Shown here: piece after piece, positions 1 to 9,539 of the stretch
How the letters are laid out: every line of letters starts with the position of its first letter
Numbering within the stretch: position 1 is the first letter of the stretch
NCBI GenBank assembly: GCA_018667995.1
Contig: JABIQT010000224.1
Coordinates: forward strand, 1-9,539
Source: Candidatus Latescibacterota bacterium
Lineage (GTDB): Bacteria; JAAXHH01; JABIQT01
Length of the DNA stretch: 9,539 nt
Direction: 5' to 3'
Notes under the pieces: model-generated
Databases searched by the model: none
Told to the model about the DNA's origin: nothing
Seen by the model: only the letters and a program-made list of their open reading frames with translations
Program-made: the position numbers and the translations under genes

Positions 1-889
1 CAGTCTCAGTGAGACGCTGCTCCGAACATGCCCACTAATCTTGACGGGCCTCGCCGTGGCTGTTGCGTTCCGGTGTGGAATATGGAATATCGGTGCCGAA
101 GGTCAGTTTCTAATGGGTGCGCTGGCTGCTGCTGCGATTGCTCCGGTTCTATCAGAATCACCTGACTATATCGGAACTCCGGCCATTCTTCTGATTGGTA
201 CATTGGCAGGTTCCTTGTGGGCAGGTCTGGCAGGATGGCTTAAAGTCTCCCGGCACGTCCAGGAGGTAATAAGTACCATCATGCTGAACTTTGTGGCGAT
301 TCAGCTTTTAGGTTATGCGGTTCATGGTCCGCTTATGGAAGCGTCGGGTCAGTTCCCGCAAACAGATCTACTCGGAGATGGCTTGCGTCTGAGCAGACTG
401 TTCGGATCGAATCGAGTCCATTCAGGCATGCTGTTGGCGCTTGTGTGTACGGCCAGTGTTTGGGTTTTCCTTTTTCGCACGGTCGCCGGTTACAGGATCC
501 GCGCTGTCGGGATAAATGTTGAGGCCGCAAAATCAGCCGGTGTCGACTCGAGGCAGACGGTACTCATGGCCATGTTGCTAAGTGGCGGTTTGGCCGGGCT
601 TGCCGGGGCGGTTGAATTCACCGGAGTTACGTATCGACTCTATGACCAATTCGGAAGCGGATTCGGATACACGGCCATAGCCGTCGCCCTACTGGGGCGA
701 TTGAATCCAACGGGCATTCTGCCGGCGGCATTACTATTTGGAGCTCTTGCGGCAGGAGCCAATGGCATGCAGCGGGAGGCAGGCGTCTCAGCGGTGTTGG
801 TTTATGTGATTCAGGGGCTGATACTGCTCTTCGTGGTCGTAGCGGCGGTCTACGAGCGGAGACGACCTCGGCGAGGGGCGGGTAGCTAG
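1..889 (+). CDS. ABC transporter permease, nucleoside/BMP type (5' partial)
   Basis: This is an inner-membrane permease subunit of the BPD_transp_2 family, the type that works with BMP lipoproteins to import purine nucleosides or related small molecules. The open frame runs back to base 2 with no stop. The residues before the TTG at 41 (ETLLRTCPLILTGLAVAVAF) match the normal interior of these permeases, so the gene is cut by the window edge and TTG 41 is not the start. The family signature GIWNIGAEGQ follows, then repeated hydrophobic segments, a central cytoplasmic-loop pattern (YRIRAVGINVEAAKSAGV) and a basic C-terminus (RRRPRRG). The stop TAG at 887-889 overlaps the next permease's GTG by one base, so the two are translationally coupled. 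The substrate cannot be read from the permease. The ATPase and binding lipoprotein are not in view and should lie upstream. Confidence 0.93.
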   Translation, partial: SLSETLLRTCPLILTGLAVAVAFRCGIWNIGAEGQFLMGALAAAAIAPVLSESPDYIGTPAILLIGTLAGSLWAGLAGWLKVSRHVQEVISTIMLNFVAIQLLGYAVHGPLMEASGQFPQTDLLGDGLRLSRLFGSNRVHSGMLLALVCTASVWVFLFRTVAGYRIRAVGINVEAAKSAGVDSRQTVLMAMLLSGGLAGLAGAVEFTGVTYRLYDQFGSGFGYTAIAVALLGRLNPTGILPAALLFGALAAGANGMQREAGVSAVLVYVIQGLILLFVVVAAVYERRRPRRGAGS

Positions 890-1812
890 TGGATGTTGTC
901 ATATTCGCCGGAATTGCTCACGCGGGCGCCAGTTTTGCGCTGCCGCTATTACTGGCCGCTCTGGGTGAGATATTTGCTGAGAGATCCGGCGTCGTCAATA
1001 TAGGCCTTGAAGGTATGATGCTGTCCGGAGCACTCGGCGGCATGATAGGGTCGTATTTCACGGGCAGCGCCTGGTTGGGGCTGGGAATCGGAATGGCGAC
1101 CGGGGTGTTTTTGGCTGTGATTTTCAGCACCGCCGCTGTGCACTTCGGGGCAGATCAGATCGTGGCTGGCACGGCCGTGAATATCCTCGCATTAGGGCTC
1201 ACAGGCGTAGTCTATAGAAGGGTCTTCGGAATCACGGGCAGCACCCTATCCGTCGAGTCGTTTGATGCTGTCGAGATACCCTTGATTCATGATCTTCCTA
1301 TGGTAGGTGCACTTTTCTCGGGCCATACGCCACCGGTTTATATTGGATTTCTGTTGGTACCGATCGCAGCATGGGTACTATTCAGGACGACGTTGGGGAT
1401 TAAGATCCGCGCCGTTGGGGAGCACCCTCTCGCGGCTGACACGGCCGGAATCAGAGTTCAGTTCATTCGGCATGGATGCACGCTTTTCAGTGGGGCAATG
1501 GCTGGATGTGCAGGCGCCTATCTTTCCGTCGCACATGCCAATACTTTTGTAGAGGGAATGTCTGCTGGCCGCGGGTTCATCGCTCTGGCCATCGTTATTT
1601 TCGGGCGCTGGCATCCGTTCTGGGCGCTGGGAGCCGCACTTCTGTTTGGGATAGCAAACGCATTGCAGTTTCAATTTCAAGCCGCAGGATCGGCCGTGCC
1701 CTACCAGTTTTTCTTGATGTTACCATATTTGCTCACGCTACTGGTCCTCGTCATTTTTGCTAGTCGGACATATCCACCTGCGGCGCTCGCAAGGGCATAC
1801 GCTCGAAGATGA
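889..1812 (+). CDS. ABC transporter permease, nucleoside/BMP type (second subunit)
   Basis: This is the partner permease of the same importer, in the YufQ/NupQ-like branch of the BPD_transp_2 family. The signature RSGVVNIGLEGMMLSGAL is present near residues 32-50, followed by glycine- and alanine-rich membrane helices and the conserved loop GIKIRAVGEHPLAADTAGI, where the ATPase usually docks. Its 307 residues are a normal full length. I take the GTG at 889 as start because it overlaps the upstream TAG by one base and GAGGGG at 873-878 sits ten bases before it. This is a strict two-gene coupling typical of heterodimeric permeases in this family. Known family members import nucleosides or purine-like compounds, and whether this one does is inference. 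The pterin genes that follow after 63 bases leave open a pteridine or methylated purine substrate. Confidence 0.93.
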   Translation: MDVVIFAGIAHAGASFALPLLLAALGEIFAERSGVVNIGLEGMMLSGALGGMIGSYFTGSAWLGLGIGMATGVFLAVIFSTAAVHFGADQIVAGTAVNILALGLTGVVYRRVFGITGSTLSVESFDAVEIPLIHDLPMVGALFSGHTPPVYIGFLLVPIAAWVLFRTTLGIKIRAVGEHPLAADTAGIRVQFIRHGCTLFSGAMAGCAGAYLSVAHANTFVEGMSAGRGFIALAIVIFGRWHPFWALGAALLFGIANALQFQFQAAGSAVPYQFFLMLPYLLTLLVLVIFASRTYPPAALARAYARR

Positions 1813-1875
1813 TCTCAGATCCGTCGTCATTTAGATGTTCAGAATTGCTCAATTCACCAAGGTCGTAACCGACAT

Positions 1876-2709
1876 ATGATGTATCTTTCTCGGCGCATTC
1901 GCTTTTCTGCCGCACACAGTTGTAGAATTGCAGATTGGACTAATATCCAGAACGCGCAGGCTTTCGGTAAGTGCGGTGTGGGCACAGGCCACGGTCACGA
2001 TTACCTCTGTGAGGTCACTATTGAGGGGCCGATTGAGGCTCGAACGGGCATTGTTGTAAATCTCGTTGATGTCAAGCAGGTGCTGTTGGAAACAGTAGGT
2101 GTGCTTGATTCTTCACACCTCAATCATGATATGGCCGAGTTTAAAAATGCTATACCGACAACAGAGCTTGTGGCGGGAGTCCTATGGGAAAGAATCGTAT
2201 CATCGGAGGTCGACTTTCATCTCCGTCGTATCCGCCTTTATCAGGATCGCACCCGATTTGTAGATTATCACGGAGGGACTGAGATGGTGTACGTAACCCG
2301 ACAGATTGAGTTCAGTGCTGCGCACAGGTTACACAGTCCGGAGCTTAGTGACGAAGAGAATGCCGCAATATTCGGGAAATGTAATAATCCCAATGGTCAC
2401 GGTCATAACTACCGGCTTGAAGTGACGGTGCGTGGTTCAGTAGACCCAACAACCGGTACGGTTATAGGTGTCGGAGAAATGGATGATATACTGGATATGG
2501 AAGTGATGAGGCGATTCGATCATCGGAATCTCAATGAGGATCTGGAAGAGTTCAAACAGCTCAATCCAACCTCAGAGGAATTTTCCCGGGTGATCTGGAA
2601 TCATCTGCTGCCTCGTTTTAACAAAGTGGAGTTGTACAAAATTCGACTTGTGGAAACCGCCAACAATGCCTTTGAATACTACGGAGATAATCATGAACGA
2701 CCCTATTGA
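1876..2709 (+). CDS. Tandem two-domain 6-pyruvoyl-tetrahydropterin synthase-like protein
   Basis: The enzyme family (PTPS/QueD, COG0720) converts dihydroneopterin triphosphate to 6-pyruvoyl- or 6-carboxy-tetrahydropterin. The 277-residue protein contains two copies, about 1-135 and 137-277, each near the length of a normal single-domain enzyme. The C-terminal copy is complete: zinc ligands H150, H175 and H177, catalytic C169 in a Cys-x5-His-Gly-His motif, D215-H216, and E260 in RLVET. Its text ([18 protein letters not shown]) is strikingly like animal PTPS. The N-terminal copy keeps zinc ligands H14, H39 and H41, and C33 and D78, but has Ser79 where the catalytic His belongs and Gln123 where the pterin-binding Glu belongs. 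The start is ATG 1876, with AAGG at 1859-1862 as a weak ribosome binding site. The gene overlaps folE, which makes its substrate. The Cys-x5-HGH spacing favours true PTPS over QueD (Cys-x3). The final pterin product is unknown. Confidence 0.92.
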
Positions 2710-3250
2710 ACCGTTGATTGAGGGATTACTCCGTGAGGTCGGCGAGGACGTTGATAGGGAAGGACTATCGCAGACACCCGGTCGGGTCGCCCGATCTATG
2801 AGATATCTCACGTCCGGTTACCAGCAGGATGCCAGAAGCGTACTCAATAATGCGGTGTTTGAGGGCGAGGATTACGACGAAATGGTGGTCGTCAGGGATA
2901 TTGAGTTCTATTCACTGTGTGAACATCATATGCTGCCCTTTTTCGGAAAGTGTCACATCGCCTATTTGCCGGACAAACGGATCATTGGATTGAGCAAGGT
3001 TGCCCGACTGGTGGAGATATTTTCCCGGCGTCTACAGGTACAGGAGAGGTTGACCACTCAAATCGCTCAAACCATGCAGGAATGGGTTAAGCCCAAGGGC
3101 GTCGGCGTCGTCATGGATGCGTCACATTTGTGCATGATGATGCGGGGCGTCCAGAAGCAGAACTCAAGCGCTACCACCAGCGCTATGCTGGGCACATTCC
3201 GTGCGGATCGGGGGACAAGGACTGAGTTTCTTGAGCTCATACGCAGATAG
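2693..3250 (+). CDS. folE: GTP cyclohydrolase I (FolE)
   Basis: This enzyme converts GTP to 7,8-dihydroneopterin triphosphate, the first step of folate and biopterin synthesis, in the cytosol as a homodecamer. All three zinc ligands are visible: C76 and H79 in SLCEHHM, and C147 in SHLCMMMRG. Other family hallmarks are [44 protein letters not shown] (split across residues 88-120) and the C-terminal RTEFLELI. The frame is open from 2648, but I choose ATG 2693, with GGAG at 2683-2686, because it gives the usual short N-terminus and 185 residues, a normal length. The start lies 17 bases inside the end of the PTPS gene, so the two are translationally coupled and their products act in sequence. A chromosomal housekeeping folE probably exists elsewhere; this copy looks dedicated to the island (inference). 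Confidence 0.97.
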
Positions 3251-3268
3251 GTCCGTGGAGGCGGTATC

Positions 3269-3280
3269 ATGATCAATCAT
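3269..3280 (+). promoter_or_regulatory. Short inverted repeat ATGATcaATCAT before the glcD-like gene
   Basis: A perfect 5-base inverted repeat with a 2-base centre lies 33 bases upstream of the oxidase start and overlaps the beginning of the small leader ORF. It is the only clear palindrome in this gap. It could be a half-site-type operator, but the short arms make chance likely. Confidence 0.15.
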
Positions 3281-3316
3281 TTTCCTGGTTTGGGTAAGAA
3301 CAGGAGTCAGTCATGA
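3269..3316 (+). CDS. Possible 15-codon leader ORF coupled to the glcD-like gene
   Basis: In the 62-base gap after folE, a perfect GGAGG (3257-3261) stands seven bases before an ATG that opens a 15-residue frame, MINHFPGLGKNRSQS. Its TGA stop (3314-3316) overlaps the ATG of the next gene as ATGA. The arrangement is what a coupled leader peptide would look like. No codon run suggests classical amino-acid attenuation. A chance occurrence is quite possible, and only the ribosome binding site and the coupling support it. Confidence 0.3.
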   Translation: MINHFPGLGKNRSQS

Positions 3317-4755
3317 CCAAGGACGCATTGGTTGCGGCGCTGGTTACGCTCGTAGGACGAGATGGCGTGATCGACGCCCCCGACGAACTGATCGTGTATG
3401 AGTGTGACGGGCTTACCATCGACAAAAACGCCCCTCATGTTGTGGTGTTACCTACGACCACAGAACAGGTATCCGCCGTAGTCAGGTTGCTTAATGAGGC
3501 CGAGGTCCCTTTCGTGGCACGAGGAGCCGGTACCGGCCTCAGCGGTGGAAGTCTCCCTCCCGACGGTGGCGTTATGATTACCATGACGCGTATGAACCGC
3601 ATACTTGAGGTTGATTTCAGCAATCGTAGGGCCTTGGTCGAACCGGGTGTGGTAAATCTGCATCTATCGAATGAGGTGGCAGCAAGGGGATATCATTATG
3701 TGCCCGATCCTTCAAGCCAATATTCATGCACGATTGGTGGAAACATCGCGGAAAACTCCGGCGGTCCCCATACCTTGAAATACGGAGTAACTACCAATCA
3801 TACGCTGGGCATGGAGGTCGTACTGCCTGACGGTGAAGTAGTCTGGCTGGGTGGCAAGACGGACGATACTCCGGGGTACGATTTAAGAGGGTTATTCATT
3901 GGCTCCGAGGGAATGCTTGGAATCGTGACAAAGGCTTGGGTACGACTCGTTAAGCTCCCACAGACCTTTCGCACCTTTCTTGCCGTTTTCGATACCATCG
4001 AAGATGCCACGAATACCGTTTCGGATCTCATAGCCAAGGGGATCGTACCTGCAGCTCTGGAAATGATTGATCAGGTCGTAATAGGAGCGGTAGAGGCTGC
4101 ATTTCATGTGGGATTTCCACTGGATGCCGAGGCTGTGCTTATAATCGAACTGGATGGACTGGAAGCGGGCATGGAAAGTCAGGCCAAACTGGTGACCGAT
4201 ATCTGTGAGGCGAATAACATGCGTGATCTTCGTCTGGCCAGTGACGGTGCTGAAAGAGACCTGATCTGGAAAAGCAGAAAGCGTGCATTTGGGGCTCTGG
4301 GACGGCTCAGCCCCAGTTATTATACGCAGGACGGTGTTGTCCCTCGCACAAAGCTACCGGATATTATGCGGGTGATAAAGGCCGCTCAGGAGAAATACGG
4401 TCTCTTAATCGGAAATGTATTTCATGCCGGAGACGGAAATATCCATCCCTGTATATGCTATGATGAGAACGATACAGGTATGATTAAGAAAGCTGTGGAC
4501 GCCAGCGCTGAGATTCTGAAAGCCTGCATTGAAATGGGAGGGTCCGTCACCGGTGAGCACGGTATTGGAGCGGAGAAAATGGATTTCATGCCGCTTCTCT
4601 TCTCCGAGGCCGATATGCGTGCCATGACCAGTGTGAAAGAGATATTTGATGGAGCTAATCTCTGCAATCCGGGTAAGGTATTTCCAACGGATAGGTCATG
4701 CATTGGATGTGGCGTGGAGGAACTGAAACCTATGAAACGCCAGGCTGCGATGTGA
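3313..4755 (+). CDS. FAD-binding 2-hydroxyacid oxidase/dehydrogenase, GlcD-like
   Basis: This is a member of the glycolate oxidase GlcD / D-lactate dehydrogenase / D-2-hydroxyglutarate dehydrogenase family, which oxidises a 2-hydroxyacid to the 2-oxoacid using FAD. The PCMH-type FAD domain covers about residues 35-215: VARGAGTGLSGGSLPPDGG (68-86), PDPSSQYSCTIGGNIAENSG (131-150) and GLFIGSEGMLGIVT (193-206). The C-terminal oxidase domain has the family's metal and substrate residues: R345 in DGVVPRTKLP, H371 and H378 in HAGDGNIH, E415-H416 in TGEHGIG, and NPGKVFP (452-458). The 480 residues are full length. The start is ATG 3313 with AGGAG at 3302-3306. No GlcE or GlcF partner gene is adjacent, so electrons must leave by another route or from a distant partner. 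The tail carries an unusual Cys463-x2-Cys466 pair. The exact hydroxyacid cannot be told from sequence. Confidence 0.93.
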   Translation: MTKDALVAALVTLVGRDGVIDAPDELIVYECDGLTIDKNAPHVVVLPTTTEQVSAVVRLLNEAEVPFVARGAGTGLSGGSLPPDGGVMITMTRMNRILEVDFSNRRALVEPGVVNLHLSNEVAARGYHYVPDPSSQYSCTIGGNIAENSGGPHTLKYGVTTNHTLGMEVVLPDGEVVWLGGKTDDTPGYDLRGLFIGSEGMLGIVTKAWVRLVKLPQTFRTFLAVFDTIEDATNTVSDLIAKGIVPAALEMIDQVVIGAVEAAFHVGFPLDAEAVLIIELDGLEAGMESQAKLVTDICEANNMRDLRLASDGAERDLIWKSRKRAFGALGRLSPSYYTQDGVVPRTKLPDIMRVIKAAQEKYGLLIGNVFHAGDGNIHPCICYDENDTGMIKKAVDASAEILKACIEMGGSVTGEHGIGAEKMDFMPLLFSEADMRAMTSVKEIFDGANLCNPGKVFPTDRSCIGCGVEELKPMKRQAAM

Positions 4756-4903
4756 AACGTGCCACCGTAAAGACTCAGGCTCCTGATTCGCCGTTTTTTC
4801 GCGGTCCATCATAGTGCCGCCGCTGTTGCAAGGATTTTTCGGCAGGTGAAATCTTCACTCTGACCAAGTGTACTCTAAGACCTTATCAAGAAGGAAGGAA
4901 TCC

Positions 4904-5893
4904 ATGGCCCATAAGATTCTGCTGACGAGCCAGTTCAAGAATGACGAGTTTGCATCCGAGGAGCGACAGAAGGGATTAGCATTCTTGTCCACATTGGGAC
5001 AACTGGTAGATGAGCCGGAAACACTCGGGGTGGGCGACGCAGAAGGCGTCATCGCTTCTATTGCTAGTTCGTCCTATTATTCGGATGATTTCTACAAGGC
5101 CGCGACCGATTTGCGTGTGGTAGCGCGTTGGGGCGTCGGATTCGACCAGGTGAATGTCCCCGCTGCAACACGAAATGGAGTGATCATTACGGTTACCCCA
5201 GTGCATATGGATGCAGTCGCGGAATACACCGTTGCTCAATGGATGGCAACTCTGAAGCGAGTGTACACACTGAATCATCTTTCGCACGGGGGAGACTTTT
5301 CAATCATTCGGACCTATGAGGCGCAATACACCACGCTGGGGCTCTACGGTTGTGGCAGGATTGGCCAGGAGGTTGCCCAAAGGGTACAGGCCCTTCTCGG
5401 AGAGAACGGCCGCCTTCTCATGTACGACCTTCGCCCTGACATTGAAGAAGTAGCGGAGAAATACAGTGCCGAGGTAGTGGCTTCGCCCGAGGAGTTATTT
5501 GAAAGATCTGATACCGTATCACTACACGTGTCGGGTGACGATACAATCGTCGACTACGATCTGCTATGCCGCATGCAGCCGCATGCCTCGTTGATAAACC
5601 CGTCTCGCGGAAACCTGGTGAACGATGATGATGTCAATCGTGCAATCAATGAGGGTAAACTGTGCTATTATGTAGTGGACGATCCGGTGAATGGTCCGCG
5701 TGAGATCCACAAGGATAACTCACGGATCATATGCACGAACCACAATGCCGGAATCACCGTGGAATCAACAAAGCGGCTCGATGCAAAAGGTATAGAACAG
5801 GTCGCTGACGCTATTCAGGGACGGTTGCCGCAACACATCCTGAATCCCGAAGTGCTGGAACATGATCGTGTGAAAAGTTGGCGCATTGGATGA
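4904..5893 (+). CDS. D-isomer 2-hydroxyacid dehydrogenase family protein
   Basis: This is an NAD(P)-dependent oxidoreductase of the phosphoglycerate/D-2-hydroxyacid dehydrogenase family, 329 residues, close to the usual length. The Rossmann motif GCGRIG is at 149-154, with acidic D175 at the end of the second strand favouring NAD over NADP. The substrate loop ARWGVGFDQVNV (74-85), the catalytic Arg R235 in INPSRGNLVN and the catalytic His H280 in NHNAGIT are present. The segment that normally reads DVFxxEP is DDPVNGP at 259-265, so the acid partner of the catalytic His is replaced by Gly264; the nearest acid is E267. I choose ATG 4904 over earlier in-frame starts because AAGGAAGG (4891-4898) precedes it and the protein begins MAHKILLTSQ. 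It lies 148 bases after the oxidase gene. It could reduce the oxidase's 2-oxoacid product or act on a related substrate (inference). Confidence 0.9.
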   Translation: MAHKILLTSQFKNDEFASEERQKGLAFLSTLGQLVDEPETLGVGDAEGVIASIASSSYYSDDFYKAATDLRVVARWGVGFDQVNVPAATRNGVIITVTPVHMDAVAEYTVAQWMATLKRVYTLNHLSHGGDFSIIRTYEAQYTTLGLYGCGRIGQEVAQRVQALLGENGRLLMYDLRPDIEEVAEKYSAEVVASPEELFERSDTVSLHVSGDDTIVDYDLLCRMQPHASLINPSRGNLVNDDDVNRAINEGKLCYYVVDDPVNGPREIHKDNSRIICTNHNAGITVESTKRLDAKGIEQVADAIQGRLPQHILNPEVLEHDRVKSWRIG

Positions 5894-5898
5894 TGATA

Positions 5899-5927
5899 TT
5901 GCAATGGTAGAGAATTGAGCTTATATT
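5899..5927 (+). promoter_or_regulatory. Candidate sigma-70-type promoter ahead of the ApbA/PanE-family gene
   Basis: TTGCAA (5899-5904) and TATATT (5922-5927) are separated by exactly 17 bases, matching four and five of six positions of the standard -35 and -10 boxes. It sits at the start of the longest gap in the window (188 bases). Transcription would begin near 5934, leaving a leader of about 150 bases before the TTG start at 6082. I saw no known riboswitch motif in that leader. Confidence 0.4.
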
Positions 5928-6081
5928 GACGCGCTGAATTCCTCATCCGGCGGGGACCTCTGTGCCGCACTCGGTAAGCTACGCGTCAGTACGAGGGGCA
6001 AGCTGTCAAAGACATCACGTAAAACCTACGGGCTATCAACAATCTATTGCATGGGTGCGACGAGCAAAGCGGGAGGCGATT

Positions 6082-7026
6082 TTGCGAATAGCTGTATACG
6101 GTACGGGCGGTGTGGGAGGCTACTATGGTGGTCGTCTTGCGGAAGCAGGCGAGGACGTAGTTTTCATCGCGCGTGGGGAACACCTCGCGGCCTTGCTTGA
6201 TCAAGGACTGCGTGTAGACAGTACCAAAGGAGACTTCATCGTAACACCGGTCGAAGCGACCGATGACCCGGCAGCAGTAGGCAAGGTAGACGTGGTAATG
6301 GTCTGCGTAAAGTGTTGGCAGGTTCCCGAAGCCGCGGAAGCCATACGGCCGATGATCGGCCCAGATACCTACGTGCTGCCGATGGAGAATGGTGTAGAGG
6401 CCCCAGGGCAACTCGCAGAGATACTAGGCTGGAATCATGTTTTGGGTGGTGTATGTGGCATCGTCTCATTCAAGGCCGGACCGGGGCACATCCAGCATGT
6501 GGCCTACGAACCGTTTGTGAATTTCGGAGAATGGGACAATCGCAGGAGTGACCGTGTGGATCGACTCTATGAAGCCTTCTCGCGGGCGAAGGGCTTGATC
6601 GTTGCGGCTCCTGATGATATCCAGGCGGCCATGTGGCGAAAGTACATACTGATCGCTTCCTGGAGCGGTATCGGTGCTGTGACCAGGGCACCAATTGGTG
6701 CGGTTCGTAGCGTACCCGGTACACGGAGACTACTCGAAAGAGCAATGGAGGAGATTCATGAGGTAGCAAGGGCCATGAATGTGCTTCTCCCAGATGATAT
6801 TGTAGCCATAACCATGGCCACGCTTGACAGCGTAGAATACGGCGGTACAGCTTCTATGCAGAGAGACGTAATGGCCGGGCGGCTGTCGGAATTGGAGAAT
6901 CAAGTGGGTGCCATTGTCAGGATGGGGGAGTCTACCGGGGTGGATACTCCCGTTAATTCATTCATCTACAATAGTCTGAACCCGATGGAACAACAGGTAC
7001 GTGGAGATCTCAGTTTCGAGGAGTGA
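6082..7026 (+). CDS. Ketopantoate reductase (ApbA/PanE) family oxidoreductase
   Basis: This is an NADPH-type 2-oxoacid reductase fold, 314 residues. The N-terminal Rossmann motif is MRIAVYGTGGVGGYYGGRLA, with the glycine loop at 7-13. ENG at 102-104 corresponds to the conserved NG of the cofactor site. In the helical C-terminal domain the catalytic Lys is K187 in MWRKYILIASWSG, and SMQRD (258-262) and E270 or E272 match the substrate and acid region. Two Asn residues that usually follow the Lys in pantoate-making enzymes are Ile191 and Ser195, so the substrate is probably not ketopantoate. The frame is open from GTG 5962, but the true start is taken as TTG 6082: GGGAGG (6071-6076) lies five bases before it and the Rossmann strand begins immediately, while the 40 residues upstream look non-coding. 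Its island neighbours suggest a dedicated 2-oxoacid reduction. Confidence 0.88.
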   Translation: MRIAVYGTGGVGGYYGGRLAEAGEDVVFIARGEHLAALLDQGLRVDSTKGDFIVTPVEATDDPAAVGKVDVVMVCVKCWQVPEAAEAIRPMIGPDTYVLPMENGVEAPGQLAEILGWNHVLGGVCGIVSFKAGPGHIQHVAYEPFVNFGEWDNRRSDRVDRLYEAFSRAKGLIVAAPDDIQAAMWRKYILIASWSGIGAVTRAPIGAVRSVPGTRRLLERAMEEIHEVARAMNVLLPDDIVAITMATLDSVEYGGTASMQRDVMAGRLSELENQVGAIVRMGESTGVDTPVNSFIYNSLNPMEQQVRGDLSFEE

Positions 7027-7071
7027 TCCGTTCGGCATCTTGAGTAGTCGCGACAGAGTACGGGAGCGTTA

Positions 7072-8070
7072 ATGAAATCGTTTTTGGACAGATTGCAGGA
7101 ATCTGAACCTTTGATATTTGACGGTGGATTTGGTTCGCAGTTGTTCGTGCGTGGCATAGAACTAGCCAACAGCGCCATTGCCAATGAATCGCATCCGGAA
7201 GCCGTTACCGATATCCATCTCGAATATATCGAGGCTGGTTCGGATGCCATCGAGACAAACACGTTCGTAGCATCATTCCCACACCTGGAGATGGCAGGTA
7301 AGGACGCATCCGCCTCTGATGGCCTGGTTCGTCGTTCGGTCGAATTGGCGAGGGAGGCGATTTCCCGTAGCGGCAAAGAGGTCTATCTTGCCGGGTCCAT
7401 TGGTCCGTTGCCCGGAGCCATAGAAGCCGATAGTGGAGACACTGATTTCGGGATTGCCAACTCTATTGCGAGAGAGGCACACGAAAGAGTTGCCACGGTA
7501 TTGGCAGAAGGCGAAGTCGATTTTTTCTGTATCGAAACTATGTTTTCTGCCAAGGAAGCGGCTATCGCCGTCGATGTCATACGTCAGTTCAATATACCGG
7601 TAGCCGTTAATCTGACTTACAAGTACACAAAAGACCGGAAAACCGGGCAGGTAATCTACAAGACTGACTGGGGGAATTCTGCCGATGATCTGTTAGGCAT
7701 ACTTTCCAGTGGCGAGCTTTCCGGCGGAGTTGATCTGCTCGATAGCGTGCATCTGCTCGGGCTCAATTGCGGAGCCGAATCGCGGCGCGATGAGCACACC
7801 GGAATGCCCTATGCCATCAATGGTCTTCAACAGCTCAAGGACGCCATGGACGAGCGTGGCATTACCTCAAAAAAGATGATGACACATCCGAACGCCGGCA
7901 AAGCCCAGTTGGATAAAAATCATAACACCTATTACGCACAAACCCCTGATGATATGGCTGCTTACCTCCCTGAACTTCTTGAAGTGGGTGCCTATATTAT
8001 TGGAGGCTGCTGCGGCACCGGCCCAAGTCATATTCGAGCTTTTCGTGATATCCTTGACGGTCGCGCCTAA
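7072..8070 (+). CDS. Homocysteine S-methyltransferase family protein
   Basis: This is a zinc-dependent methyltransferase of the MmuM / betaine-homocysteine / MetH N-terminal domain family (S-methyl_trans), 332 residues, full length. The barrel begins with LIFDGGFGSQL (14-24), followed by SDAIETNTF (57-65), AGSIGPLP (107-114) and FCIETMFSA (152-160). The three zinc-binding cysteines are C233 in GLNCGAES and C313-C314 in GGCCGTGPSHI. Family members transfer a methyl group from a donor (S-methylmethionine, betaine, a methylcorrinoid or methyl-folate) to the zinc-bound thiolate of homocysteine. The donor here is not readable. Beside an MtaA-type methyltransferase gene, a corrinoid-linked demethylation role is likely, with the enzyme acting as methyl donor-side or acceptor-side transferase (inference). 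The start is ATG 7072 with GGGAG at 7062-7066, 45 bases after the reductase gene. Confidence 0.92.
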   Translation: MKSFLDRLQESEPLIFDGGFGSQLFVRGIELANSAIANESHPEAVTDIHLEYIEAGSDAIETNTFVASFPHLEMAGKDASASDGLVRRSVELAREAISRSGKEVYLAGSIGPLPGAIEADSGDTDFGIANSIAREAHERVATVLAEGEVDFFCIETMFSAKEAAIAVDVIRQFNIPVAVNLTYKYTKDRKTGQVIYKTDWGNSADDLLGILSSGELSGGVDLLDSVHLLGLNCGAESRRDEHTGMPYAINGLQQLKDAMDERGITSKKMMTHPNAGKAQLDKNHNTYYAQTPDDMAAYLPELLEVGAYIIGGCCGTGPSHIRAFRDILDGRA

Positions 8071-8120
8071 GACATTTAATGATGGCGCCGCCGAGATAGG
8101 CATCGGAGGATAGCAGGACC

Positions 8121-8375
8121 ATGGCGGAATTTCAGGTACTATATTGGAAGGACATTCCGGCACAGGTCAGAGCCTACGAAGGTCGGAAACGAAAATCAAT
8201 ACAGCTGCCGGACCGGTTCCAACTGGCGATAGACCAGCGGGCTATGATTGAGGGCCTGGCAGGTACAGATGCTTATCTGGAGCATTGGGAATGGACGGAA
8301 AAGCAGGAGCGTTCCGGATCAGCCGATACCGTTCTGAACGATGTGGTACGCGAATTACTCGAAAAACATAAGTGA
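8121..8375 (+). CDS. Small 'virulence factor' domain protein (PF13769-like)
   Basis: This is an 84-residue soluble protein. The pattern YWKDIPAQVRAYEGRKRKS (9-27), then LPDRFQLAIDQRAM (29-42) and GTDAYLEHWEW (48-58), fits my recollection of the family named 'virulence factor' (PF13769). The name is historical, and I know of no established biochemical activity. From memory, genes of this family often sit beside methyltransferase, corrinoid and methylenetetrahydrofolate-reductase genes in proteobacteria, which agrees with the placement here between a homocysteine methyltransferase and an MtaA-type gene. It is therefore more likely an accessory or assembly factor of methyl transfer than a virulence protein (inference). 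GGAGGA (8105-8110) lies ten bases before the ATG. It has no signal peptide, membrane helix or cysteine. Confidence 0.8.
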   Translation: MAEFQVLYWKDIPAQVRAYEGRKRKSIQLPDRFQLAIDQRAMIEGLAGTDAYLEHWEWTEKQERSGSADTVLNDVVRELLEKHK

Positions 8376-8500
8376 TGTCGGGGAACGGCACCGATCGTTT
8401 ATAGCACTCCAGCAACTAAGTGCCCGAAAATAGGGCGTGCCGGTCACGGATGTCATAACGATTTCAGAATCGCTGAACTGAAATGAACTGAGGGAATCAC
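8376..8500 (+). promoter_or_regulatory. Possible structured leader ahead of the 210-residue protein gene
   Basis: This 125-base gap contains several complementary pairs: CGGCAC (8386-8391) with GTGCCG (8437-8442), enclosing GCACT (8404-8408) with AGTGC (8419-8423), and CCC with GGG (8423-8435). Just downstream CGATT/AATCG (8459-8472) overlaps TTCAG/CTGAA (8463-8477), so those two hairpins exclude each other. A TGAACTGA direct repeat (8474-8481 and 8484-8491) abuts the ribosome binding site GAGGGA. No known riboswitch consensus was recognised, and the stems are short. Confidence 0.25.
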
Positions 8501-9133
8501 ATGGGCCAGACTTTGAACATTGGCGAGCGCATTGAACTTGTGCCTATGGATAATCACTGCGATGGCATTTCTGTGGCGCTATATAGCCATAATGGTGCGG
8601 CAGGCGACGGATATCTGGTACATACCTACAGCCGTCACAGAAGTGCACAGGAGAGAGTGGGATTCCTACAGAAAGCCATGCGCGTTCTTGGTGGCCTGGA
8701 AGAGGGAGAGGACCATCTTCTCCGTTTTTCGTGCGGGCACGATCACGAGCAGGGGATCAAGCGCATATTTCTGGAGGCCTGCAAGCTCTCATCGGTCGAC
8801 GAACTACACGCCAAGCCGCTGCATGTATTGGACAAGAAGTCTGGGTTGACCGTGCAAGCCGATTGCAATGGAGCAGGTGTCTACCGTGTGACGGCTCACG
8901 GTGAAGGAAATGATGCTGATCGCCGTATAAATCTCATCGCTGGTGGCCTGTTAAAGCTGGGGCAGATGGTAGAGGTGGAAGGACACTTGGACACGATTGC
9001 ATTTCCGTGCTCCCAGAACCATGACGCCATGATCGGACTGCTGCTCGTCCGTTCACCCAACGTTCGTGCGGCCCTGCGTGAGCAGGAAATGACCGCTTCG
9101 CGGGGTGTCTTAGCCGCGCCCAGTCAACAGTAA
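8501..9133 (+). CDS. Unrecognised 210-residue protein with two related Cys-x3-His halves
   Basis: I do not recognise the family. The protein is soluble by eye, with no signal peptide or membrane helix, and is fairly His- and Asp-rich. Two segments align with each other at a spacing of 92 residues: about 38-94, ending LLRFSCGHDHEQGIKRIFLEA, and about 127-185, ending TIAFPCSQNHDAMIGLLLVRS (each given here as separate repeats). Both keep a run of small and hydrophobic residues (RVLGGLEEGE and GLLKLGQMVEVEG), then Cys, three residues, His (C78/H82 and C170/H174) and an Ile four on. The first half also has H80. Such a paired Cys/His pattern could bind a metal or, more speculatively, ligate a corrinoid. 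ATG 8501 follows GAGGGA at 8490-8495. It lies 48 bases before the MtaA-type gene and 125 after the PF13769-like gene, so a role in methyl transfer is plausible from position only. Confidence 0.85.
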   Translation: MGQTLNIGERIELVPMDNHCDGISVALYSHNGAAGDGYLVHTYSRHRSAQERVGFLQKAMRVLGGLEEGEDHLLRFSCGHDHEQGIKRIFLEACKLSSVDELHAKPLHVLDKKSGLTVQADCNGAGVYRVTAHGEGNDADRRINLIAGGLLKLGQMVEVEGHLDTIAFPCSQNHDAMIGLLLVRSPNVRAALREQEMTASRGVLAAPSQQ

Positions 9134-9181
9134 TAACCGCAGAATATGTTTCCATAAACAGTCCACGAGGGGAAATAGCGT

Positions 9182-9539
9182 ATGTCCAGCAGTCAATCGG
9201 TCCCAGCGATGTCTTCGCGTGAACGAGTTCTATCCGCACTGGCCAGAAAACCCGTGGACCGAACGCCAGTCTGCAATCCGACATCCGTGGCTACGGTTGA
9301 GTTGATGGACCTTGTAGATGCCCCATTCCCGGAGGCTAACAGGAATCCGGAGTTAATGGCTCGATTGGCAGCTACCAGTTATACGGAACTTGGATTCGAT
9401 TCCATCATGCCGGTATTCTCCATCATTCAGGAGTCAAGTGCTCTGGGATGCAGTATCCAATGGGAACAGAAGGATAATTGGCCTACTGTGCGGATGGGAG
9501 ATCCTATTTGGGAAGATGCGGACGATATCAAGATTCCGC
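9182..9539 (+). CDS. MtaA/CmuA-type methyltransferase, uroporphyrinogen decarboxylase fold (3' partial)
   Basis: The first 119 residues are present, and the frame is still open at the window end. The start ATG 9182 follows GAGGGGAA at 9167-9174. RERVLSALARKPVDRTPVCN (13-32), then VATVELMDLVDAPFPEANRN (36-55), then ELMARLAATSYTELGFDSI and a segment ending SALGCSIQWE are the characteristic opening of methylcobamide:CoM-type (MtaA) and CmuA/MtbA methyltransferases rather than haem-pathway HemE. Enzymes of this family move a methyl group between a corrinoid protein and a thiol, or onto tetrahydrofolate in CmuA-like pathways. The zinc-binding His/Cys motif lies in the missing part, so activity cannot be checked here. 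The neighbouring homocysteine-methyltransferase-type and PF13769-like genes support a methyl-transfer cluster whose corrinoid protein should follow. Confidence 0.9.
   Translation, partial: MSSSQSVPAMSSRERVLSALARKPVDRTPVCNPTSVATVELMDLVDAPFPEANRNPELMARLAATSYTELGFDSIMPVFSIIQESSALGCSIQWEQKDNWPTVRMGDPIWEDADDIKIP

Follow-up and report, generated by a model that had tools for sequence, protein, structure and literature searches.

Enzymes of the PTPS family are built as dimers of trimers, each trimer ring having three places, and the usual user of tetrahydrobiopterin, the cofactor to which one branch of the family is linked, is Phe-hydroxylase. Two types are told apart by a short motif, CxxxxxHGH marking PTPS-II (the tetrahydrobiopterin type) and CxxxHGH marking QueD (PMC5041015), and the catalytic triad is described as intersubunit in the title of Burgisser 1995, as cited in PMC7546909 and PMC2229834. 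Among the T-fold enzymes, two-domain chains are known in urate oxidase, GTP cyclohydrolase IB and bimodular QueF, a series that PTPS would join through the protein analyzed here. A literature search for tandem PTPS or pseudo-PTPS, which covered part of the COG0720 literature, found no description, and an earlier mention is possible.

The gene lies in a stretch of 9,539 nucleotides from a Candidatus Latescibacterota bacterium (assembly GCA_018667995.1, contig JABIQT010000224.1, positions 1 to 9,539), hereafter the window. It was compared with its counterparts in the 15 other genomes of the same order and in more distant phyla.

Domain structure and active-site residues

The tandem gene and its parts were the following:

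1876..2709, plus strand: tandem PTPS gene with domains A (N-terminal) and B (C-terminal), an intact ORF of 277 aa
1876..2271, plus strand: domain A, with His14, Cys33, His39, His41 and Asp78 kept, Ser79 (2110-2112) and Gln123 (2242-2244)
2116..2118, plus strand: codon of His81, two residues past the lost catalytic His
2284..2706, plus strand: domain B, with His150, Cys169, His175, His177, Asp215 and His216 (2518-2523) and Glu260 (2653-2655), the full PTPS set

The tandem PTPS fusion proposed in the preliminary description was borne out. The Pfam PTPS profile (PF01242; COG0720) matched the protein twice (E = 1.8e-56 and 189.7 bits for the whole protein), and each half taken alone scored above the curated cut-off of 22.4 (77.0 bits for the N-terminal and 116.1 bits for the C-terminal half). 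As A and B also shared 35% identity over 134 aa (E = 2e-31), the likeness between them is not due to chance. In an alignment that took in human PTPS (1b66) and about 150 other domains, the zinc ligands and the Cys corresponded to His14, 39, 41 and Cys33 in A, and to His150, 175, 177 and Cys169 in B. The position of the catalytic His in A is held by Ser79, after Asp78, and that of the anchoring Glu by Gln123, whereas both counterparts in B, the Asp215-His216 dyad and Glu260, are present. The residues assigned earlier from the bare sequence, namely three zinc His and a Cys in both halves, Ser79 and Gln123 in the first, and D215-H216 and E260 in the second, were thus recovered as written in this comparison, and the full set (zinc His triad, Cys, Asp-His and Glu) is found in B and not in A. 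The escape route by which His81 would restore the triad of the N-terminal half received no clear support, the column being off by two and His or Asn being common there in intact PTPS; a possible role for His81, which is invariant in the A-halves of the order, would be that of a helper residue.

Conservation within the order

The same fusion was present in all 15 other genomes of the order, with 52-59% identity to the window protein (40-52% for A and 66-69% for B). B was intact in 16/16 proteins. A lacked the catalytic His in 15 of the 16, with S, A, M or L instead, and the exception (L088) keeps Asp-His in A, its Cys being gone; overall, the Cys was missing from A in 5/16 proteins and a zinc ligand in 4/16. 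The change to Gln123 is private to the window protein, since all 15 relatives keep Glu at that position. Values of omega were 0.25 for A and 0.09 for B (Nei-Gojobori, 12 genomes of one genus, the pairs of which are not independent), and A is looser than B yet still under purifying selection. Some function therefore maintains it, the simplest candidate being a role as structural partner. The view of the degeneracy as an accident of this one protein or as the mark of a pseudogene was rejected for the Ser79-type loss, which is order-wide and accompanied by an omega of 0.25, and stands only for Gln123.

A/B pairs in other phyla

Fusions of the same kind were also found in Bacilli, Armatimonadota, Candidatus Eisenbacteria and a large lineage around genome G054 (the G054 lineage). 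Unfused genes for A and B, lying next to each other with A just upstream of B, occur in Acidobacteriota, in a Vampirovibrionales genome and in one other. When the halves were treated separately in the phylogeny, as the preliminary description had suggested, the A domains of several phyla clustered together, separate from B-type domains and from single PTPS, with support values of 97/92 and 98/96 in two trees. The A clade has long branches and its details call for caution, single long rows being unsurely placed; the reduced tree, with more lineages, kept the clade (98/96). Since a well supported branch sets all A domains apart, A and B are an old pair rather than the outcome of local duplications. 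A Met at the junction, where B starts, was retained in 67 of 72 fused genes, which fits the fusion of two genes. As part of the best explanation of the locus, the tandem gene would thus descend by fusion from two anciently paired PTPS paralogues, A and B, which several phyla have. Two irregular cases were also observed: genome G093 carries a second, very degenerate tandem PTPS copy (L186), and in genome G119 the tandem gene is split into two overlapping frames (L190).

The distribution of catalytic residues was evaluated over 88 pairs, that is, 94 minus six Bacteroidota pairs in which the first gene fell outside the A group; planctomycete proteins of similar length, the N-terminal half of which phmmer did not recognise as PTPS, were left out (L022, L024, L026, L049, L051, L077). 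The three zinc His, the Cys and the Glu were present in B in 88/88 pairs. Of these 88 pairs, 64 have the Asp-His dyad in A and 43 have it in B; not one lacks it in both partners, versus about 12 such pairs expected if losses were independent and the proteins not related to one another, as they in fact are. The reduced tree implies a minimum of 3 changes in the state of the dyad for A and of 8 for B. Throughout the G054 lineage (45 proteins; L099, L142-L181, L187-L191), A has Asp-His and never the Cys, and B always has the Cys, with Tyr or Phe for the His in 32/45 proteins; in four f50 proteins B likewise lacks the dyad. Because the PTPS triad has been described as intersubunit, the site in the G054 lineage looks like one made by the Cys of B and the Asp-His of A. 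The window's order would represent the opposite, with a B that appears self-sufficient in residues. In the adjacent pairs of Acidobacteriota, A is intact and B lacks Asp or His in 8/12 (L008-L011, L013, L023, L027, L028, L037, L064, L071, L081). The A/B pairs amount to a natural mutant series of an intersubunit site, with Asp-His gone from A or from B according to lineage but in no case from both; with this series, the direction in which subunits share residues can be put to the test.

Gene neighbourhood

The genes flanking the tandem gene were as follows:

2..889, plus strand: ABC permease, upstream neighbour, running off the window
889..1812, plus strand: ABC permease (PF02653), upstream neighbour, also found in other members of the order and in Armatimonadota
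2693..3250, plus strand: folE (GTP cyclohydrolase I, the source of the PTPS substrate), starting with ATG 2693, still within the tandem gene
3313..4755, plus strand: GlcD-like FAD oxidase

In the ten loci of the order that were examined, folE adjoins the tandem gene and the FAD oxidase gene lies downstream; A-type domains of several phyla usually have folE as a neighbour, and in many cases a reductase gene as well. The upstream ABC permeases were also seen in other members of the order and at three loci of Armatimonadota, together with a Bmp-type binding protein and an ATPase where examined. Genes of a Bmp-type ABC transporter are thus found beside the tandem gene in two distant groups, the order and Armatimonadota (window 2-1812; L113 9526-13337; L016 3679-8017). 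The operon of one relative (L113 2016-5595) differs from the window in what follows, namely genes for a second FAD oxidase, for a Lar_N protein and for two BMC microcompartment shell proteins. In the window, positions 4868-9538 hold hydroxyacid dehydrogenase, ketopantoate-reductase-like, homocysteine S-methyltransferase-like, Virulence_fact and MtaA/CmuA-like genes, which look like a methyl-transfer cluster; an ORF of 210 aa at 8501-9133 had no Pfam or NCBIfam match.

Pathway role

The tandem gene was the only PTPS (COG0720) homologue found in the genomes of the order (16/16), in which QueC (16/16), TGT (15/16) and FolB (16/16) were also detected. In the window's own genome, queC, queE and queF lie side by side (L134); QueE was assigned by how it ranked against QueE models, by the motif CxxxCxxC and by position, its scores lying below the curated cut-offs. 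No separate queD was found in that genome, where at 85% completeness one may have escaped notice. Given a sole COG0720 protein and the presence of queC (of queE and queF too in the window's genome), the tandem protein is most likely QueD, and hence the likely missing QueD of the order, despite its animal-type motif. The QueD equivalog model TIGR03367 scored 104.6 against a cut-off of 89.25, a score summed over the two domains. The presence of FolB argues against the tandem protein substituting for FolB in folate synthesis; the separate location of the tandem gene, which is not beside queC-queE-queF, counts against the QueD assignment. A second, divergent protein of the TGT family was also observed in three order genomes (G013:C23, G001:C103, G011:C254).

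The reading favored for the locus, with a probability of roughly 0.6, is that of a bimodular PTPS/QueD that takes FolE-made dihydroneopterin triphosphate as substrate, with B active, A a pseudo-subunit, the product going to queuosine, and the gene derived by fusion of the old A/B pair. The adjacent FolE would supply the dihydroneopterin triphosphate, and the product, presumably 6-carboxytetrahydropterin, would feed the queuosine pathway. The tRNA modification pathway of a whole order would thereby gain its likely QueD, in a protein whose motif suggests a tetrahydrobiopterin enzyme.

That motif, CxxxxxHGH, occurs in both halves (CGVGTGHGH and CNNPNGHGH), and the QueD motif CxxxHGH is absent from both. 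The earlier claim that the C-terminal half resembles animal PTPS more than bacterial QueD holds among solved structures (E = 4.7e-36 and 1.5e-35 for animal PTPS, 1.6e-7 for E. coli QueD), but its nearest relatives overall are bacterial. As the likeness to animal PTPS is common to many bacterial phyla, it implies no animal source, and an animal origin of this half was rejected, the motif itself being widespread in bacteria. An unlikely alternative is that the tandem protein is a tetrahydrobiopterin-type PTPS making 6-pyruvoyl-tetrahydropterin for a reductase, with queuosine served by an unrecognised QueD or by a side activity of this enzyme. The PTPS-II motif of both halves (PMC5041015) is in its favor, as is the position of the pair next to folE and an SDR reductase gene, a candidate for a sepiapterin reductase gene, in Armatimonadota, Acidobacteriota, Bacilli and the G054 lineage (not both at every locus), and three fusion-bearing Armatimonadota have a Phe-hydroxylase. 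Within the order, however, no SDR gene adjoins the tandem gene (one distant weak match), Phe-hydroxylase (PF00351, the cofactor user searched for) was found in only 2/16 genomes and not in that of the window (85% complete), and there is no other COG0720 protein to serve queC. Where the pair occurs in folE-SDR operons of other phyla, most genomes have further PTPS, in several cases close to queC; such operons, together with the further PTPS elsewhere, point to an original tetrahydrobiopterin-like role. The pair may reasonably be read as having arisen in a tetrahydrobiopterin-like pathway and been taken over for queuosine in this order, perhaps with both products.

Division of labour between the domains

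Most likely, B is the catalytic domain and A a partner subunit that has been conserved, the two sharing one T-fold barrel after the manner of bimodular QueF. Domain B would carry the whole active site, with zinc on His150/175/177, Cys169, Asp215-His216 and Glu260, and domain A would be a pseudo-subunit that fills a place in the barrel and no longer offers an Asp-His dyad. The preliminary description had foreseen one catalytic half and another that is structural, regulatory or changed in product; the distinction between a half that looks catalytic and one that does not is upheld by the order-wide pattern (B intact in 16/16, His lost from A in 15), and the changed product is unsupported, because the Cys and the zinc ligands of A decay in relatives. 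For this reason, an A that is still an active enzyme with altered chemistry is very improbable: Cys33 and the zinc histidines are kept in the window's genome and A is under purifying selection, but the alignments show no conserved new residue set, and Gln123 is private. Active sites shared between the domains, which in the order would combine Cys33 of A with Asp215-His216 of B, or have His81 of A aid Cys169 of B, are somewhat less improbable, yet still quite doubtful. The intersubunit triad named in the title of Burgisser 1995 (cited in PMC7546909), the complementary split of residues in the G054 lineage and the four f50 proteins, and the invariance of His81 in the A-halves of the order all suggest sharing. 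Against it, A has lost the Cys in five order relatives and a zinc ligand in four, while B has the full set in all 16, so the Cys of A is not generally needed; a general Cys(A)-Asp-His(B) site was accordingly rejected for the order. The literature search returned no source placing Cys and Asp-His on neighbours within one trimer versus across trimers.

Predicted assembly

AF2 monomer models of the window protein and of the G054 protein were confident, with pLDDT values of 93 and 94 and pTM values of 0.90 and 0.88, respectively. Their single domains match PTPS, and over both domains the models align to urate oxidase (228 residues, 4.0 Å, Z 13.8; 224 residues, 4.1 Å, Z 13.3) and also to GTP cyclohydrolase IB. 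From this whole-chain match, A and B are predicted to lie side by side in one barrel, which would create A/B interfaces. The preliminary description had proposed that a double-domain chain would give an alternating assembly with mixed active sites at such interfaces. A ring of three places is not evenly filled by A-B chains alone; possible candidates are a four-place ring as in urate oxidase, a ring mixed with free B, or separate rings.

A source of free B may be present within the gene:

2272..2286, plus strand: candidate internal start for free domain B, GGAGGG at 2272-2277 followed by ATG at 2284-2286

The junction Gly codon was GGA or GGG in 60/60 genes of the order and the G054 lineage. 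In neighbouring genes, the corresponding fractions for Gly codons that precede GAN were 0.51 and 0.29, and about 10% of internal ATGs have a comparable upstream motif. This putative internal ribosome site and ATG 2284 may therefore yield free B (141 aa) as well. A broader proposal, possible but rather doubtful, is that of an old heteromeric PTPS family in which B always has zinc ligands, Cys and Glu, Asp-His comes from either partner, and the dyad has passed from one subunit to the other on several occasions; free B would also be made from the fused gene, starting at 2284, so that a three-place T-fold ring could be formed from one A-B chain and one free B.

Comparison with known systems

E. 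coli QueD (PTPS-I; 4ntk, 3qn0) shares with the tandem protein the fold, the catalytic residues and likely the pathway role, but it is a single domain with CxxxHGH and only about 30% identical. Closer in sequence is animal PTPS (PTPS-II; rat 1gtq, human 3i2b), to which B can be aligned from end to end, at 45% identity to the human enzyme and 1.3-1.4 Å, and of which it has every catalytic residue as well as CxxxxxHGH; animal PTPS is however a hexamer of single domains, as opposed to two fused domains of which one is degenerate, and no tetrahydrobiopterin-dependent hydroxylase (PF00351) was detected in the window's genome. Urate oxidase and GTP cyclohydrolase IB have two T-fold domains per chain, side by side in one barrel, but with less than 13% sequence identity and other reactions they offer a structural precedent only. 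Bimodular QueF of the Vibrio cholerae and E. coli type (PMC5372742) is likewise a queuosine-pathway enzyme of two tandem T-fold domains and about 280 aa, with the catalytic Cys and the anchoring Glu in the C-module and, as a further likeness, the catalytic Cys lost from the N-module. The two differ in that QueF reduces preQ0 and has the QueF motif, whereas the tandem protein had no QueF family match among Pfam and NCBIfam profile hits; moreover, the N-module of QueF supplies a needed motif, while A in the order has lost the dyad and has no needed motif known. As a probable bimodular PTPS/QueD in which one module is degenerate, the tandem protein comes closest in its logic to this QueF type (PMC5372742).
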